Of a stretch of DNA of 64,000 bases, positions 20,552 to 48,498 are shown piece by piece. Source of the DNA: Parabacteroides distasonis ATCC 8503. Lineage in GTDB: Bacteria; Bacteroidota; Bacteroidia; Bacteroidales; Tannerellaceae. Under the pieces are notes generated by a model, which did not search any database, was not told where the DNA came from, and saw only the letters and a list, made by a program, of their open reading frames with translations. The DNA is taken from NCBI RefSeq assembly GCF_000012845.1, contig NC_009615.1, positions 767,501 to 831,500 of the forward strand, given 5' to 3'. The position numbers and the translations under genes are program-made. Every line of letters begins with the position of its first letter. Position 1 is the stretch's first letter.

Positions 20552-20755
20552 GAAAAAAGATAAACAGGGAATGAGTTAAGCCGCACTTGTTCGATTGGGA
20601 AACTCATCAGTTTATTTTAATTCCGAGACATAGCTCTTGTCGCCAATGGCGGGCCGCGCCCTTCGGGGTATGCTTAGCACGGCGGATTACAAAGGTGGCA
20701 AAGCACTCAAATCCTGTCATACGGAGTTTGTTCATATCTACAGTGCGGCTTTTTC
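20552..20755 (+). ncRNA. Probable Bacteroidales-1 / 6S-like RNA
   Basis: A perfect 10-bp closing helix joins AAGCCGCACT (20578-20587) to AGTGCGGCTT (20742-20751), and U residues follow. A second helix (AAACTC 20600-20605 with GAGTTT 20724-20729) leaves a large bubble of about 12 nt on each side, a 6S-like layout. The interior holds GC-rich hairpins such as CCCTTCGGG. A consensus promoter precedes it. Its position just downstream of rplT is the one reported for the Bacteroidales-1 motif, which I recall being proposed as the Bacteroidales 6S RNA. 6S RNA binds the RNA polymerase holoenzyme. A covariance-model search would settle it. Confidence 0.72.
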
Positions 20756-20762
20756 AAATAGG

Positions 20763-25982: not shown

Positions 25983-26909
25983 CTAGAACCATTTGATCTT
26001 CCTGAATATAAAAAAGGCCGTAGCGGATAGCAAGATCGAGAGCAAGATGATAACCACGAAACCATGCGGCATATCCTCCATGTAGATCGGGACGTTCATC
26101 CCGTAGAAGCTAGCGATTAATGTCGGAACCATTAAGATAATGGAAAGTGATGTCATACGTTTCATGATCGTGTTCACGTTGTTGGAGATGATAGAGGCGA
26201 AAGCGTCCATCGTACCCGTAAGAATATCGCTATAGATATTTACCGTGTTATGGGCCTGTTTCAACTCGATCTCCACGTCCTCCACCAAATCCTTGTCGAT
26301 ATATTGCGGCTCTTGGAAAATATTCTGGAGCTTGGCCAGCATCACCTCATTCCCGCGGATGGAGGTGTTGAAGAATACCATGCTCTTCTCCAGCTTCATC
26401 AACGCTAGCAGATCCTCGTTACGGATGCTTTTCTCTAACGCCTTTTCCGCCTCGGTGACGGCGTAATTGATTTGTTTCAGGTATTTAAGGAACCATACGG
26501 CCGATGAGTGGATCAGCCGGAGGATCAACTCATACTTGTTTTTAATCTGGAGTTCCTTCCGTTGGGTATAGCGGATGAAATCGGGGATCAAGTCCGTCTT
26601 ATGGTAACATACGCTTACGATGATCTCATTGTTCGTGATGATACCGATCGGCACCGTATTGAACGGGATGTCATGATCTTGGTTCTGCAACGGGATACGT
26701 AAGATGGTAAGCAACCAATTCCCCTCGTACTCGATACGGGGACGCTCGTCCGTATCGGCTATATCGCTCAAGAATGATTCGGGTACGTTAAATCGATCCA
26801 TCAAGAATTGAAGATCTTCGGGAGTCGGGCACTCTACGTTTACCCAACTGTTAGGAAGCCATTGGTTCTTCTCCACATAACCGGCCTCACAATAAAGAAA
26901 TTGTCTCAT
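25983..26909 (-). CDS. corA: CorA-family divalent cation (Mg2+/Co2+) transporter
   Basis: The 308-residue protein has a large N-terminal cytoplasmic domain, a long helical stalk and two C-terminal membrane segments. The family's pore signature YGMNVPIYMED lies between them. CorA forms pentameric Mg2+ channels gated by intracellular Mg2+. The ATG is preceded at 5 nt by AAAGGAGG (26915-26922), a strong Shine-Dalgarno that is rare in this phylum. The leader of about 120 nt contains a short ORF and a hairpin. Confidence 0.93.
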   Translation of the reverse strand: MRQFLYCEAGYVEKNQWLPNSWVNVECPTPEDLQFLMDRFNVPESFLSDIADTDERPRIEYEGNWLLTILRIPLQNQDHDIPFNTVPIGIITNNEIIVSVCYHKTDLIPDFIRYTQRKELQIKNKYELILRLIHSSAVWFLKYLKQINYAVTEAEKALEKSIRNEDLLALMKLEKSMVFFNTSIRGNEVMLAKLQNIFQEPQYIDKDLVEDVEIELKQAHNTVNIYSDILTGTMDAFASIISNNVNTIMKRMTSLSIILMVPTLIASFYGMNVPIYMEDMPHGFVVIILLSILLSATAFFIFRKIKWF

Positions 26910-27064
26910 TATTGCCTCCTTTCGTGTTTAATCCGAGCAGAGGATCAATGAAACCCTCCGCCTCGTTAGTTCATACTCTGTTTTGTTTCTAGCGGGATAC
27001 TGTCGTCCATAATTTGATAATTACTTATTACGGCGCAAAGATAATACTTTTTTACGTAAGTAAA
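26910..27064 (-). promoter_or_regulatory. corA promoter and structured leader with a 14-codon upstream ORF
   Basis: On the minus strand, TTTA (27064-27061) and TATCTTTG (27043-27036) are 17 bp apart and form a promoter. The leader then holds an ATG at 27010-27008 opening MDDSIPLETKQSMN, with its stop at 26968-26966. Right after the stop, CGAGGCGGAGG (26965-26955) can pair with CCTCTGCTCG (26943-26934), with one bulged G. The Shine-Dalgarno of corA is at 26922-26915. The arrangement resembles leader-peptide control, but translation of the small ORF is unproven. Confidence 0.5.
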
Positions 27065-27119
27065 GTTATGTCGCTGTATGCTGACAGCAATATTGTTGCC
27101 AGTTTACGTTAGCATAGGC

Positions 27120-27230
27120 TTACTTCTCTGAGAGTATTGCGATACTTCTGGTAATAGTACTGGAGTACTTTCACGAAAGTACCCGAGTACTTCCTAAGAA
27201 GTACTCCAATACTTCTTAGGAAGTACTGGC
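27120..27230. repeat. Tandem array of five 22-bp palindromic units (GTACTTC/GAAGTAC type)
   Basis: Units lie at 27120-27141, 27142-27164, 27165-27186, 27187-27208 and 27209-27230 (22, 23, 22, 22 and 22 nt). The last three begin (G/A)TACTT and contain perfect or near-perfect inverted arms: GTACTTTC with GAAAGTAC, GAGTACTTC with GAAGTACTC, and AATACTTC with GAAGTACT. Flanks at 27065-27119 and 27231-27286 hold nothing recognised. The array lies between the stop of the lipoprotein gene and the promoter of corA, both on the minus strand. Confidence 0.75.
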
Positions 27231-27286
27231 CGTCTATTCAATCCCGCATTTTCCCTCTTCGTTGAAGTAGAAGAAGAGCCCGGTAT

Positions 27287-28180
27287 CTATGCTGACCGGG
27301 CCATGGCTTCTCTTCCTCCCTTGAACTCGGCCATGGGGCGAGGCTCGTGGAGCCGGCTGGCGAAGCGTGTGTATTCCTCATAATCTTCCGGGTTATCGGA
27401 TAGGTAGAATGTGGCGGTTAAAGGGTAATGGACGAGGCCGGCGCCATGTCCGGTGCTGACGCTCTTATGCACCCGGTACAATCCCGGTGGGTTTTCCTTG
27501 AGTTCGGGTAGCAAGGTGGCCGAGAAATCGTCTCTTGTCTGGTTAGGAAAGATCGGATAGCCGAGAGCGACGAAGGCGGTGGGTTGCGGGATTCCTTTCC
27601 ATGCCCTCCCGTCGAAACGCTCGATGAAATACTCTTCGCCTCCCATCCCTTCCAGGTCGGTATGGTTGGTGATAGCGATCTCGATCCGCTCGATGTTGGT
27701 TGGGTAGACGTTCGGTCTTACTCGCATGGAGAAGTGGGTGGTGTCCATGCTGATAGCTTCCTCGGGTGGCCGGTCGTAAGGGCCTCCGCCGATCCGGATG
27801 AGGGGCGAGTCGAATACGTACGTCTTAAATGCTTTTACATACGGAGCTTCCACTATGATAAGCTGTAGGAAGACGGAGTCGTCCGTGTTCCAGAGGGAGG
27901 CCATGTTTCTGCGGATCTTCCGGAGATGCGGGGGAAGGGTATCGTATTCCTTGCCGAAGAACAATTCTATGCTGTCCCGTATCTGCTTGGCGGTCCATCC
28001 TTCCGTGGAAACTGAAGATGCGGCATGGGTATCAGTCGGTAACGGTAGGGTATCTTGCCGTGCTATGGATTGGGAGTCGGCTGAGTAGTCGCTACTGTTT
28101 TCCCCTTTCTTTTGTTTGGTATGGCAGCCGTATAATAGGCAGCCGCCCATGATAACTAATCCGATAAAATACGCTTTCAT
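27287..28180 (-). CDS. Lipoprotein with bacterial Ig-like domain
   Basis: The 297-residue protein has a lipoprotein signal (lipobox LLYGC around residues 15-19), then a Ser/Thr-rich linker to about residue 60. A helical part follows, then a beta-rich domain (about 145-265) with MRVRPNVYPTNIERIEIAI, YFIERFDGRAWKGIPQPTA and PPGLYRVHKSV. These patterns resemble the bacterial Ig-like family often called Big_14. The C-terminal 30 residues are charged. It probably faces the periplasm or the surface. The ligand is unknown and no operon partner is visible. Confidence 0.75.
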   Translation of the reverse strand: MKAYFIGLVIMGGCLLYGCHTKQKKGENSSDYSADSQSIARQDTLPLPTDTHAASSVSTEGWTAKQIRDSIELFFGKEYDTLPPHLRKIRRNMASLWNTDDSVFLQLIIVEAPYVKAFKTYVFDSPLIRIGGGPYDRPPEEAISMDTTHFSMRVRPNVYPTNIERIEIAITNHTDLEGMGGEEYFIERFDGRAWKGIPQPTAFVALGYPIFPNQTRDDFSATLLPELKENPPGLYRVHKSVSTGHGAGLVHYPLTATFYLSDNPEDYEEYTRFASRLHEPRPMAEFKGGREAMARSA

Positions 28181-43242: not shown

Positions 43243-44847
43243 TCAAACCATATCATCTCCTGTCTTGGCGAATGTAACACGGATGGTTTTATGGAATGGG
43301 ATAAAACGAGATACGATCGCTATGAATAAGGAGATGACTAATAAATACCCCAGTATCTCTTTTAACGCCAATAATAAGCTTTGTTGCTGTAACGTATTAT
43401 AGAGTGTATTGGTAGCCATTTGCGCTGCCTCGTCGTAGGGATGCCCTTGGGTCAAGGCGTTGCCAAGCGCCTGATTATAGCGTGAGGCGGCTAGAGGATC
43501 GGCCAGCGTAACGGTTTCTGATAAGGAATACATATATTTTTGTTCCAAGCGATATAGTATATTACTGTAAAAAGAAGTCGCCATGATAGGGGATAGTACC
43601 GAACGGAAAATGATGAGAAAGAAAGCGTTTGACAATAAATATTTAGGATTTAAATCTTCCACGGCAAATAAGGCGAAAGCTATGATTAGAATCATCATGC
43701 CCAATCCCCTGAGGAATATAGGAAAGTAGAGCATCTCGTATCTGCTATCCGGTGAGATCCCGAAATAAAGGCTCCCGAAGAACAGGACGAAACAACTCAT
43801 TCCTCCCGCTATCAAGAAACGAAACCGCCAACGTTGCCACCGGAACCACCAAAAACAGATGAACGCCCCCAAGACATATCCCGGAAGCAAATAAGTATAA
43901 AGGGAATAGGTATGGGTACTGTCTACCTTTAAGATACTGGTCAGGTAGCTGGTCAACAAGGTAGTCGAAGTACTGAAAAACATGACAAGCATCATATAGA
44001 AATAACCGATAATGGCTTTCGGCTGGTATAAAGGCGCCAGATTCACGTACGGACGTTCCGAATGATATTGATACCAAATAAATAAAGCGATCAATATCGG
44101 GGCGATCATGATATAAAGGCAAATCTTGGGGGATGCCATCCAGTCGAGTACTTTCCCGTAATTAATGACATACATAAGCATTAACAATCCGGTGGATATG
44201 ATGAACATTTCCCGGATGTGTAGATCGGCCAAGGGGATGGACTTGATCGGCCGGTTATGGCGGAAGCAGATGATTACCATTACTATGGCCAATAAAATCA
44301 TTAGCATCATGAAGTAATACATATATTTCCAGTCGTAATGGTAGGCTAACTGTGCGGTAACAAGCATGGACGCTTGTCCCCCTCCGAAAACAAAAGGATA
44401 GAAGTAGGAATAGAATTGGCTACGTATATTTTTAGGGCTGAATATCTTTTGTGCGTACCGGATAAACCACAGCATGAGAAACCCTTTCAGGAAACCGATC
44501 GCGAAACTACAGACGATCAATATGTCGGCGTTCTGGGAGCGGGCACAGATCCAGCTTAAGAAGAACTGGGCGACTAAATCCGCTAACAATAAGAATTTTA
44601 TAGAGAAGGCTTCTAATATCTTCGGAATAATCGGATAGGATACCGCCATTCCCGCCGCTGCCGCGTAATATCCCATGGTTATATCCTCGGTGTTCGTGCC
44701 TAGCGTGTTTGATACCTCCAGCATACTGCCGGTGTACGAACCGTTTAGCATCGTAACCGGAAGGATAACGATGAAGATGCAAATCAATCCTAACCAGTCC
44801 GGCACCCATTGGCGGATCGGTGCCCCAAGCTCTTTCATCGTGATCAT
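43243..44847 (-). CDS. MFS drug efflux transporter (EmrB-like)
   Basis: The 534-residue polytopic protein has about 12-14 membrane segments spread over the whole length, with a basic cytoplasmic loop near the middle. It resembles the DHA2-type permeases paired with HlyD adaptors. The start overlaps the adaptor stop by 4 nt (ATGA), a mark of coupled translation. With the adaptor and TolC-like protein it should form a tripartite pump. The substrate is unknown. Confidence 0.9.
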   Translation of the reverse strand: MITMKELGAPIRQWVPDWLGLICIFIVILPVTMLNGSYTGSMLEVSNTLGTNTEDITMGYYAAAAGMAVSYPIIPKILEAFSIKFLLLADLVAQFFLSWICARSQNADILIVCSFAIGFLKGFLMLWFIRYAQKIFSPKNIRSQFYSYFYPFVFGGGQASMLVTAQLAYHYDWKYMYYFMMLMILLAIVMVIICFRHNRPIKSIPLADLHIREMFIISTGLLMLMYVINYGKVLDWMASPKICLYIMIAPILIALFIWYQYHSERPYVNLAPLYQPKAIIGYFYMMLVMFFSTSTTLLTSYLTSILKVDSTHTYSLYTYLLPGYVLGAFICFWWFRWQRWRFRFLIAGGMSCFVLFFGSLYFGISPDSRYEMLYFPIFLRGLGMMILIIAFALFAVEDLNPKYLLSNAFFLIIFRSVLSPIMATSFYSNILYRLEQKYMYSLSETVTLADPLAASRYNQALGNALTQGHPYDEAAQMATNTLYNTLQQQSLLLALKEILGYLLVISLFIAIVSRFIPFHKTIRVTFAKTGDDMV

Positions 44848-45914
44848 TTGCGTAAGGCTTCTGTTTCAACCATCATGCCTGCTCTTAAGTATTGCGTATC
44901 TTCTTGCGATAGATTTTCCAAGTCTATCCGTACCGGGATACGTTGTTGTACCTTGACGAAGTTTCCGGCGGAATTGTCGGTCGGGACCAATGAGTATTTG
45001 GAGCCTGTGGCGTCGGAGATTGCGGTTACCTCCCCGTTGAATATCTTTCCCGGCAACGCGTCTACCTTGATACGTACTTTTTGCCCGATATAGATGTGGG
45101 GGATCTGGGTCTCCTTGTAATTGGCCGTGATCCATTTGTCTTTATCTCGTACGAGGTAGGATATCGTTTGTCCGGCTTGCACGTATTGTCCGGGCTCTAA
45201 GGTCCGTCTGCCTACATGACCGTCGTAAGGGGCGGTTATAACGGTATAGGAAAGGTTTAACCTCGCTAAATCCAGATCCGCTTCTTTTCGTAAGATCGCC
45301 GCCTCGGCTCCTGTTGTCTTCTTGCTGGTTTCGGTGAATTGGGAGAAAGCGGCTTTCTTTTGTTCCACCAACGCCTGATATCGGGCTTGCGCCGCCTCGA
45401 AAGCGGCTTTGGATTGCTCGTATTGTTGCTCGGGGACCGATTCTTCTTTCAGCAGCCGCTCAAATCGGTGATAATCCTGTTCCAGTTGCCAAAGCTTGGC
45501 TTTAGCTTCGGCGATGTTGGCGTCTTGTACGGCGATGTTCGTATGGGAGGTCTCGATACCGGAACGAAGTACGTCTTGTGATCCTTGGGCATCGATCAAC
45601 GCGGCCTCTGCCTCTTTTAACTTGATCCGATATTCCCGATCGTCCAGTATGAGAAGTGTGTCCCCTTGGTGAACGTACTGGTGTTCCTTGAAACGGACCT
45701 CTTTTATGTAGCCGGAGGCACGTATATTTAGTGGGGCGATATATTGGTCCACAAAGGCATCGTTTGTCACCTCATAATTGATGTAACGCCAGAAATAATT
45801 GGCTGTCCACCAAATGCCGGAACCGGCTAAAAGGATACATATGGAGTTTAATACTATATTCCGTGTCCTTACTTTCTTTAGTCTTTGATGTTTCTCTTTT
45901 AATTCGTTTGCCAT
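44844..45914 (-). CDS. HlyD/EmrA-family membrane-fusion protein
   Basis: The 356-residue periplasmic adaptor has one N-terminal membrane helix (NSICILLAGSGIWWTANYF) and a split biotinyl-lipoyl-like domain (APLNIRASGYIKEV, ITAPYDGHVGRRTLEPGQYV). A long alpha-helical hairpin at about 95-195 is rich in Ala, Glu and Gln. It bridges the MFS permease and the TolC-like channel encoded beside it. Overlap with the permease gene is 4 nt. Confidence 0.93.
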   Translation of the reverse strand: MANELKEKHQRLKKVRTRNIVLNSICILLAGSGIWWTANYFWRYINYEVTNDAFVDQYIAPLNIRASGYIKEVRFKEHQYVHQGDTLLILDDREYRIKLKEAEAALIDAQGSQDVLRSGIETSHTNIAVQDANIAEAKAKLWQLEQDYHRFERLLKEESVPEQQYEQSKAAFEAAQARYQALVEQKKAAFSQFTETSKKTTGAEAAILRKEADLDLARLNLSYTVITAPYDGHVGRRTLEPGQYVQAGQTISYLVRDKDKWITANYKETQIPHIYIGQKVRIKVDALPGKIFNGEVTAISDATGSKYSLVPTDNSAGNFVKVQQRIPVRIDLENLSQEDTQYLRAGMMVETEALRK

Positions 45915-45929
45915 AGTCGTTGTTTCTTT

Positions 45930-47249
45930 TTAGAGACGGCCGCAAGCCTTCTGTAGTTGATAGTAAGTGTAAATCACGTGGGTACGGGCATTCGTGAGCT
46001 GTAGCTCCGCGTTGAGGAGAACCGAGTTCGCGTCGAGTAAGTCGGTTAGGATCGCCAATTGGTTTAAATAGCGGTTTTGCATGATCCTGTAGTTCTCTTG
46101 AGCTTGCCGTACGGATAACTTCAAGGCTTCCACTTCTTGTAGGGCCTCCTTATGACGTAAGAACGCGGTGCGTACTTCCATGCGGATTTTCTGCTTTTTC
46201 TGTTCCTCCTCGTTTTTATGTAACGAGACCATCCATTTGCTTTCCTTTATTTTATGGTTGTTTTTATATAAAGAGGATAAAGGGTAGGAGAGCGACAGTC
46301 CTATGTTCCAGTTGTTATTGTACATATCCGCTAATGTTCGGGAGACTGGACGTGCCAATGTGTTCGACGCATATAGCGATAGGCTGGGTAGCGAGGAGGC
46401 TTTAGTCAAACGTATATCATTTTGGGCTAACTCTGTTTGTTTCCGGAGTAGACGTATCGCCGGATCATTGGAATAGGCTTGGGCTACATAATCTTCGTAA
46501 GTTTCTAAAGATACGGTTTGGTCCAGTAACGTGGTATCTGGTTTGAGCAATAGATTCTCATCGAGACCGATCAGGATATCCAATTGCTGTGATACCAGTA
46601 TGAGGCTATTATCCGTTTCTTGCAAGGATAGGCGGTCGTTGGTTAATTGCATCTCGCTTCTTAATACGTCGTTATTGGTTATCAGTCCCTCTTTTTTCAT
46701 ACGCCGGATATCTTGTAGGCGGCGTTCCGATTCCTCGATATTACGGGAAAGCACCTCACGTTGTTTAAACAGGCTGAAAAGACCGATGTATTGATTTAAT
46801 AGACCGAGCTTGATCTCACTCTGGTCTGTGAGCGTTTGTAAAGAGGCGACTTCTTTCTCCAGATCCGCTTTCCGGATGGAATACCGGATTTTACCGCCTT
46901 GGTATATCGGTTGGGTAAGGTCGATGGCATAGTTCTGGGACCAATCGGGCGCTTCCGGGCGAGTCGGATGGGCGAGTCCTTGCTCAAAGAGGATCGGTTG
47001 CCCTACATATCCACCTTTCAAGCCGATTTGCAGGTCTGGCAATTGTGCGGAACGTGCCGTATGGGTTCTCTCTTGCGCTATCGATTCTTTTAAGACGTCT
47101 GCTTGGATCTGCAGACTATGCCGTACGCCTCTCTCGAAAAGCTGGTCGATGGTCAAGAAGAGCGAATCGGTTTGGGCGATTGCCGGAAATGTAGCGACCG
47201 TCATACAAAAGAGGCTCAATACGTGCTTTTTATATATTCTCAAGGACAT
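45930..47249 (-). CDS. TolC-family outer-membrane efflux protein
   Basis: The 439-residue protein has a signal peptide (cleavage likely after FPAIAQ). Two repeats of the outer-membrane efflux protein family (about 30-220 and 240-435) are made of long coiled-coil helices with heptad Leu/Gln/Glu patterns. It probably forms the trimeric exit duct of the pump. The start overlaps the marR 3' end by 20 nt, and the adaptor gene follows after 15 nt. Confidence 0.92.
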   Translation of the reverse strand: MSLRIYKKHVLSLFCMTVATFPAIAQTDSLFLTIDQLFERGVRHSLQIQADVLKESIAQERTHTARSAQLPDLQIGLKGGYVGQPILFEQGLAHPTRPEAPDWSQNYAIDLTQPIYQGGKIRYSIRKADLEKEVASLQTLTDQSEIKLGLLNQYIGLFSLFKQREVLSRNIEESERRLQDIRRMKKEGLITNNDVLRSEMQLTNDRLSLQETDNSLILVSQQLDILIGLDENLLLKPDTTLLDQTVSLETYEDYVAQAYSNDPAIRLLRKQTELAQNDIRLTKASSLPSLSLYASNTLARPVSRTLADMYNNNWNIGLSLSYPLSSLYKNNHKIKESKWMVSLHKNEEEQKKQKIRMEVRTAFLRHKEALQEVEALKLSVRQAQENYRIMQNRYLNQLAILTDLLDANSVLLNAELQLTNARTHVIYTYYQLQKACGRL

Positions 47250-47670
47250 TATGTACTGCTTTTAATTCGGATAACATGGTTTCTACGTTCTCTATTCCGA
47301 TAATATGCTCCGCATGTACATAAACCTGATCAAGGATCGGGCGAATTTGCTTTTTGAATTCTTCTCCTTCCGGGGTTAGGAAAACCAGTTTGTTCCTCCG
47401 GTCCTCGGGATCTTCTTTCCGATGGACGTAGCCTTTCTTCTCTAAATTGTTCATTAGGTTTGTCAGACAAGCCTTATCCTTTGCCGTTCTCTCTGCCAAG
47501 ACCTGTTGGGTGATACCTTGTTCGTGCCATAGGCAACTCAAGATTTGAAGCATCTCAAATGTTATACCGGCGTTGTTCTTTTTCAGCGTTCGTTGCATAG
47601 ACCGACGAAATGCCATGCGTGTGCGGACAACTTGTAACATAAGTTCCCGGAATTCTTTACCTTCTACCAT
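47230..47670 (-). CDS. MarR-family transcriptional regulator
   Basis: The 146-residue protein is a winged-helix MarR repressor. It shows a recognition-helix region (GITQQVLAERTAKDKACLTNLMNNLEKKG, about 70-98), the wing EDPEDRRNKLVFLT, and flanking dimerisation helices. It is the first gene of the efflux operon and very likely represses it. A 22-bp inverted repeat sits over the -33 element of its promoter. Confidence 0.93.
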   Translation of the reverse strand: MVEGKEFRELMLQVVRTRMAFRRSMQRTLKKNNAGITFEMLQILSCLWHEQGITQQVLAERTAKDKACLTNLMNNLEKKGYVHRKEDPEDRRNKLVFLTPEGEEFKKQIRPILDQVYVHAEHIIGIENVETMLSELKAVHNVLENI

Positions 47671-47700
47671 TACTTATAATTCTTTTAAACTTGCTGGGCG

Positions 47701-47744
47701 CGAAGATAGCGTTTTTTCTCGGATTAGTCAAATGTTTAACTAAT
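47701..47744 (-). promoter_or_regulatory. Efflux operon promoter with overlapping MarR-type operator
   Basis: Minus-strand TTTG (47732-47729) and TATCTTCG (47708-47701) are 20 bp apart. An imperfect 22-bp inverted repeat, ATTAGTCAAAT with GTTTAACTAAT, spans 47723-47744 and is centred on the TTTG. Repressor bound there would block the promoter. Confidence 0.65.
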
Positions 47745-47769
47745 TAGTGTCTCGCTAATAAAGTATGTT

Positions 47770-47886
47770 TGCCATCTAGGTGGCACAGCTTTGCCATCGG
47801 CGTGGCACGGGCTTGCCATCACTATGGCACGGGTATGCCATCAGCGTGGCACAGCTGTGCCAAGGCGATGGTAGATGTTGGCACAG
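47770..47886. repeat. Tandem array of 22-bp palindromic units (TGCCATC..TGGCA type)
   Basis: Four exact-length 22-bp units start at 47770, 47792, 47814 and 47836, each reading TGCCATCnnnRTGGCAC plus a 5-nt spacer. A fifth, longer unit runs from TGCCAA (47858) to TTGGCA (47883). Each unit is an inverted repeat (TGCCA with TGGCA), and the spacers CAGCT(T/G) and CGGG(C/T) vary. The array lies between the 3' end of the flavodoxin gene and the MarR promoter. The rest of 47671-47994 holds the promoter, operator and an inverted repeat at 47920-47951. Confidence 0.8.
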
Positions 47887-47994: not shown

Positions 47995-48498
47995 TTATCC
48001 AAACGCCTCCTTCAATTGCTTCACCCATCGCTCGATTCGTTTGTCGGTTTGATCCGGTTGGTTTTCCAAATCGAGGACTAAGCCTAGTAGTTTGCCATTT
48101 TTCAAGGCTTTGGAGGCATTAAAGAAATAATCATCCGAAGAGGTCTCGCCTACTAAAGTCGCTCCACAGGAGGTGAAAGCGTCCGCCAATATGCCGACTC
48201 CATCGGCGAAATTATCCGGATAATTCGTTTGATCTCCAAGACCGAAAATAGCGACCTTCTTATTTTTAAGGTCTAAAGTGACCAGTTCCGGGATGATCTC
48301 GTCCCAATAGGTGGGAAGCTCGCCATCGAACCAAGTAGAGGTTCCTGCGATTATATGGTCGTAAGCCTCGAAATCTCTTTTCCATGCGCTTTCAATAGGG
48401 ATGATATCGATCTGATCCTCCCCGAAAGCTTTTCTTATTTTATTGGCGACAAAGGTTGTTTTCTCTGTGCCCGTTCCGTAAAATAATCCTGTTTTCAT
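47995..48498 (-). CDS. fldA: Flavodoxin
   Basis: The 167-residue protein has the FMN phosphate loop YGTGTEKTTFVA, the isoalloxazine-contacting segments GTSTWFDGELPTYWDE and FGLGDQTNYPDNFADG, and the long-chain insertion typical of the E. coli type. It carries low-potential electrons. It follows the 2-oxoacid dehydrogenase E1 gene by 33 nt on the same strand and may share the transcript, although the E1-E3 complex itself does not need flavodoxin. Confidence 0.95.
   Translation of the reverse strand: MKTGLFYGTGTEKTTFVANKIRKAFGEDQIDIIPIESAWKRDFEAYDHIIAGTSTWFDGELPTYWDEIIPELVTLDLKNKKVAIFGLGDQTNYPDNFADGVGILADAFTSCGATLVGETSSDDYFFNASKALKNGKLLGLVLDLENQPDQTDKRIERWVKQLKEAFG

Follow-up and report, generated by a model that had tools for sequence, protein, structure and literature searches.

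What kind of element repeats a palindrome every 22 bp between a flavodoxin gene and a marR efflux operon of Parabacteroides distasonis ATCC 8503, and to which of these neighbors does it belong? The question is sharpened by a second array elsewhere in the window (i.e., the whole stretch of 64,000 nucleotides analyzed here), which the initial annotation had described as sharing period 22 and a position between co-directional genes with the first one, in an unrelated sequence; this description proved correct. By direct reading and dyad-array scoring, the array at window 47769-47884 consists of four 22-bp units following the pattern (T/A)TGCCATC-nnn-(G/A)TGGCAC, with a 4-nt linker after, and then of a widened fifth, the unit starts (47769, 47791, 47813, 47835 and 47857) being spaced by exactly 22 bp:

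47769..47790, no strand: unit 1, TTGCCAT-CTAG-GTGGCAC-AGCT (direct reading and dyad-array scoring)
47791..47812, no strand: unit 2, TTGCCAT-CGGC-GTGGCAC-GGGC (dyad-array scoring)
47813..47834, no strand: unit 3, TTGCCAT-CACT-ATGGCAC-GGGT (dyad-array scoring)
47835..47856, no strand: unit 4, ATGCCAT-CAGC-GTGGCAC-AGCT (dyad-array scoring)
47857..47884, no strand: widened last unit, GTGCCAA...TTGGCAC, its closing half-site ~22 bp past the last forward half-site
27120..27230, no strand: second 22-bp array, AGTACT family (Tandem Repeats Finder, period 22; sequence search)

The linker AGCT is present twice, and closing half-sites like this one also end several other arrays of the same family (GTGCCAY, below). 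Four units and an expanded fifth had been proposed before and are confirmed: the 324-bp intergenic region has a dyad-array score of 0.93, which 300 dinucleotide shuffles never came near (top score 0.67). Tandem Repeats Finder reports period 22 over 47768-47862, and TGCCATCNNNRTGGCA, when as many as 2 mismatches are allowed, is matched 12 times in the window vs 1.71 expected (maximum in 100 shuffles, 6), 9 of these matches falling inside the array. Regarding the layout of the unit, its dyad nature stands but the 5-nt spacer does not, the family-wide organization being an arm GTGCCAY/RTGGCAC, a loop of 4 free nt and a linker, also of 4 nt, that is mostly free. Neither of the two arrays has an Rfam match at gathering thresholds.

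The immediate surroundings of the array comprise the following features:

43249..47766, minus strand: operon of MFS pump, HlyD, outer-membrane efflux protein and marR (Pfam; operon also given as 43243-47670), missing here in the sister genome G016
47724..47747, no strand: TTAGTCAAATGTTTAACTAATTAG, putative MarR operator, separate from the array and counterpart of a palindrome at relatives' marR promoters
47995..48498, minus strand: flavodoxin gene (Pfam Flavodoxin_1), the array lying downstream of its 3' end

In G016, which is ~92-99% identical in most aligned blocks, the flavodoxin side and the array are kept while the marR operon is missing. Indeed, G016 runs from window 43248 straight into the array edge and lacks the 4.5-kb operon, the right edge of the missing segment being the array. 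Since the array is present in G016 although the operon is not, and since the break falls right at the edge of the array, genome comparison assigns the array to the flavodoxin 3' end. The comparison of the flavodoxin-marR region among strains proposed in the initial annotation thus retrieved the array in G016, along with periodic orthologous arrays, while a link of the array to marR was not upheld. Among 22 Bacteroidales marR relatives (five partial Lachnospiraceae matches being left out), no 22-bp array was found within 420 bp upstream for 20, one of which (L062) has a 21-bp array upstream. The two exceptions, a Bacteroides MAG (L049) and Phocaeicola plebeius (L050), have a 22-bp array of the AGTACT type upstream of marR, and array families beside marR hence differ between species. 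In nearly all of the 22 relatives (L041-L062), the marR promoter is overlapped by a AGTCAAATATTTGACT-like palindrome (degraded in L059), which is also found, in changed form, at window 47724-47747 and is the likely MarR operator. The array itself was rejected for this function because 20 of the 22 relatives do without a 22-bp array, another palindrome is kept and G016 has the array without the operon. As the window MarR is 83-85% identical to its best Bacteroides and Phocaeicola relatives and at most 61% to same-genus relatives, the efflux operon was probably acquired horizontally, the alternative being a loss in G016.

The GTGCCAY half-site forms 11 arrays in the 4.81-Mb genome (BLAST and pattern search). 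Their period is nearly invariant, 27 of 31 successive unit starts being 22 bp apart (two are at 11, a shifted match, and two at 45) and same-orientation cores being spaced by 22 in 52 of 66 cases. Most places matching the pattern (42/57) lie inside the 11 clusters, and the 15 lone places represent no excess over a reversed-pattern control (28 forward, 27 reverse). Across 44 units from 10 of the 11 arrays, the arm core holds 1.2-2.0 bits per position, the loop 0.05-0.23 and the linker 0.19-0.65. The remaining array-bearing locus L093, with mixed 22/23-bp spacing, escaped period-22 detection and is excluded from the unit-tally, placement, arm-change, mismatch and terminator counts. Identity of loops and linkers is 0.339 within arrays vs 0.329 between them, and that of arms 0.778 vs 0.766; units of one array are no nearer kin than units of other arrays. 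Because loops and linkers are equally different within and between arrays while arms are kept, selection on arms and spacing seems to be needed. Local amplification, put forward in the initial annotation, is in line with the 22- and 44-bp steps that do occur but, on these same identities, fails on its own for this family. The AGTACT family, with 8 arrays and 28 units in this genome, is likewise conserved at its arm positions (1.1-2.0 bits; identity 0.887 within vs 0.869 between arrays), its inner and linker positions being more alike within arrays (0.538) than between them (0.404). That the arrays are not copies of one repeat therefore holds in that the families are unrelated, but each of them is itself dispersed.

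These two families belong to a much larger class. A sequence-blind scan of 1.06 Mb of this genome, 17 stretches of which had been picked around GTGCCAY matches, detected 52 arrays (37 at period 22 and 6 at 23) vs 1 in one shuffled copy. Without the targeted stretches, and with 400 kb from four same-genus genomes added (1.32 Mb), 50 dyad arrays were found, 34 at 22 and 9 at 23 and the other 7 one each at seven further periods, these counts containing the window, itself selected for its arrays. Weaker arrays escape the detector, which requires three units and 6-bp arms; extrapolation from 34 arrays in 0.92 Mb gives ~175 arrays per genome. Half-sites sorted by eye include GTGCCA, AGTACT, TTGCAGT, GTGAAA, GTTTC, AAACACGT, GATGAAAA, TTACAATG (23-bp) and others, and in the two families read closely they recur each 11 bp, with 3-6 units per array. 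The shared form without shared sequence noted for two arrays is hence far more general, extending to 50 arrays and several unrelated families. When the 34 other arrays are pooled, ~4 bp about one axis are variable (identity 0.35-0.37 for the 30 arrays whose axis falls between bases) and positions 4.5-8.5 bp from it are conserved (0.73-0.86), a descriptive profile since the axis was picked as the lower-identity one. Further arrays were seen in Bacteroides sp. GM023 (L043) and another MAG (L041), and 20 stretches of distant genomes (0.31 Mb) gave a single 22-bp case, with a score of 0.86. The class looks little-described: a literature search, from whose coverage subscription journals were mostly absent, found no account of 22-bp palindromic arrays in Bacteroides or Parabacteroides.

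Regarding placement, which relies on crude gene predictions, only one of 46 arrays with a period of 21-23 lies inside a predicted gene and one at a stretch edge. In same-direction settings, 22 of 24 arrays are nearer the 3' end of the upstream gene (14 of 16 outside targeted loci). Arrays are present in 8 of 33 convergent intergenic regions of at least 120 bp, compared with 16 of 172 tandem and 6 of 85 divergent ones, a modest convergent enrichment (p = 0.02 vs divergent and 0.03 vs tandem). The AAACACGT family, as sorted by eye, departs from the 3'-end rule with 3 of 7 arrays in divergent regions. A regulon was rejected, the genes flanking the arrays having no common theme; none emerged either from 20 proteins beside 10 GTGCCAY arrays, 3 of these proteins having no Pfam match.

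A location at gene 3' ends suits an RNA function. REPs have been proposed to block exonucleases or to help termination at mRNA 3' ends, and the arrays might similarly be transcribed as rows of hairpins. Symmetric units would work in both directions, and the RNA modeling suggested earlier did yield a strong predicted transcript fold (z -5.6 and -5.0), a long nested hairpin whose opposed loops are mostly non-complementary by eye. The arms themselves tell against this explanation, which we consider unlikely. In 60 arrays, arm deviations within units are one-sided in 165 of 1383 cells, compensated in 9 and double non-matching in 4; across linkers, 123 of 1025 are one-sided, with no compensated or double ones. 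Mismatches on the sense strand display no G-U preference (18 G-U vs 26 A-C), both these and the arm-deviation counts including the orthologous arrays of G016. Since arm changes are mostly uncompensated and show no such preference, RNA pairing is probably not the conserved property, and the two counts favor DNA recognition over RNA pairing despite 9 compensated cells within units where ~2 are expected under independence (calculated by hand). At the innermost pair of the GTGCCAY arms, 43 of 72 units, orthologues included, have T/G or C/A and 14 a complementary T/A or C/G, and 44 GTGCCAY loops contain no excess of stable tetraloops (0 GNRA and 2 UNCG, on either strand). Furthermore, an RNA does not require an exact period. 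Selected RNA stems are thus disfavored by the uncompensated changes, the missing G-U preference and the arm-only conservation. Intrinsic terminators were also rejected: a hairpin followed by a T tract within 150 nt of the stop codon is found at 13 of the 36 gene ends that have arrays and at 74 of the 239 that have none, i.e., no excess across families, and at none of the 10 gene ends with GTGCCAY arrays.

We tentatively favor, at somewhat less than even confidence, a genome-wide class of phased dyad arrays that would serve, in the manner of REP/BIME, as boundary elements at the 3' ends of genes and be bound by putative sequence-specific proteins. Each sequence family would be read by its own putative DNA-binding protein, the proteins of all families sharing one oligomer geometry; bound dimers would line up on one helix face and cooperate only when several in-phase sites are present; and the complex, just after genes and between converging genes, may prevent read-through or restrict how far supercoiling spreads. 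Cooperative putative DNA-binding proteins fit because half-sites are under selection, the two-turn period is near-fixed, lone dyads are not in excess and placement is at 3' ends. The period of 22/23 across unrelated families, the arm-only conservation, the clustering, the 3'-end bias and the G016 orthologues support such boundary elements. Counting against them, several families would need several putative binders, the convergent enrichment is modest, AAACACGT arrays occur in divergent regions, AGTACT units resemble each other within arrays and compensated changes exceed independence. A more specific proposal, which we regard as rather unlikely, is that Parabacteroides and some relatives possess boundary elements made of many unrelated operators with one geometry (~18-bp dyad and 4-bp linker), the reader of each belonging to an unrecognized, fast-diversifying putative DNA-binding family whose members would polymerize along DNA at gene ends. 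Phage stoperators, which are repressor sites located after genes and stopping transcription, offer a parallel; however, they are single sites for one repressor in phage genomes, while the arrays are chromosomal, multi-unit and of several families.

Several known repeats bear comparison, within what the cited passages cover. REP/BIME palindromes (GTAG- and CGTC-tagged) are many-copy and intergenic, with several types per organism, and lie downstream of genes, between convergent or co-directional ones (PMC3733652). The arrays are also intergenic, dispersed, multi-family and 3'-end biased but, in contrast to REP/BIME as described there, are near-strictly phased at 22 bp, with conserved arms and unconserved loops. 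Position tallies of 44 GTGCCAY units revealed neither a GTAG nor a CGTC tag at the palindrome foot, and G000 has no RAYT match (Y1_Tnp, PF01797), the positive control matching in 5 of 14 well-known genomes; RAYT-driven REPs are hence rejected for this genome. Because the tag and RAYT tests fail, the arrays may be called BIME-like in their working but are not assigned as BIMEs, their placement being that of REP/BIME. In Porphyromonas gingivalis, the BrickBuilt MITE and other 22-, 23- and 41-nt tandem repeats have been reported, with earlier reports of 22-nt tandem repeats cited (PMC4596501). They share the phylum, intergenic 23-nt tandem repeats and unit gain or loss at conserved loci; however, BrickBuilt is described as direct repeats that follow each other with no spacer and belong to a MITE having a leader, a tail and terminal inverted repeats, and the passages considered mention neither palindromes nor many sequence families. 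With such a leader and tail in mind, the flanks of GTGCCAY arrays share nothing by eye. Finally, the TAACTGA heptamers of Beggiatoaceae and some Bacteroidetes (PMC4679880) are likewise a short conserved word repeated in numerous intergenic sets, with no gene-function pattern and a putative binder, but are direct repeats mostly right before start codons.

Selfish palindromic repeats, spread by a non-RAYT enzyme and having no host role, would account for dispersed families of patchy range and for different families adjoining marR in different species. The GTGCCAY family is found in 10 of the 38 genomes sampled in the genus, this genome being one of them, in 3 of 197 in the order sample (own, one same-genus and one same-family) and in 3 of 296 in the phylum sample (own and two with a single weak match each), and the AGTACT family in 2 of 197 (this genome and another with one match at 3 mismatches) in addition to Phocaeicola plebeius. 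Dead copies should nevertheless decay evenly, yet arms are kept while loops and linkers are nearly random, and GTGCCAY arrays have no common flanks by eye; we deem this origin quite unlikely.

Between genomes, the array positions are shared with G016, the number of units differing by gains or losses in 22- or 44-bp steps; the divergence of orthologous arrays spans almost none (L098) to much more than that of their flanks (L093). Such steps, with 44 bp extra in L197 relative to L100 and repeated 44-bp blocks in L205, are what neutral minisatellites arising by slippage would produce. The near-fixed period across unrelated sequences and the arm-only conservation already disfavor that origin, to which we give hardly any credence. 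The arrays could otherwise mark joints of gene gain or loss. Between G000 and G016, 10 array loci were compared (not among them L095, L097, L099, L200, four array loci of G041 and the first array of L199), and a hand count gives 7 with an indel or a synteny edge no more than 80 bp from the array; the missing marR operon of 4.5 kb and the losses on both sides of the 27-kb array are among these cases. G016 keeps this array but misses the adjoining window 26119-27078 and 27307-28160, i.e., most of the CorA gene and of the Big_14 protein gene that flank it (26119-28160). Since the ends of both genes remain in G016 and the CorA side is retained in two further genomes, these losses are probably deletions in G016. 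Set against such hot spots, L093 and L098 are unbroken over 8 kb, the nearest break to L096 is 514 bp off, 3' intergenic DNA tolerates indels and palindromes are known to promote deletion. Because five other large indels in the compared stretches lie away from detected arrays and a random-region baseline is lacking, the association of breakpoints with arrays is a lead, and recombination or deletion hot spots appear very unlikely as the explanation of the arrays.

For the boundary elements favored here, a length constraint (22 bp, about two helical turns) across unrelated sequences would point to common machinery with readers of changing specificity. Were this true, gut bacteria would gain a chromosome-organizing or transcript-ending system, in this case in a genome that gave no RAYT match.

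Additional observations were made in individual genomes. In G524 (another genus of the same family), a GTGCCAY variant has a near-fixed palindromic AAASTTT-like linker and varied loops, which suggests that the linker-centered dyad is the true site. The GTGCCAY-like array of L205 (4263-4400), with its 44-bp blocks, apparently underwent a recent two-unit duplication; G000 has no array at the matching place, and the left flank of the L205 place (1.1 kb searched) was not found there. The 27-kb array of G016 contains a compensated arm change (by eye), which counts against the boundary elements favored here. A 23-bp family of TTACAATG-SS-CATTGTAA occurs at L108, L130, L131, L132, L143 and L147. Elsewhere in the window, at 20579-20756, Rfam identifies a Bacteroidales-1 RNA (6S suggested) with a score of 192.7.
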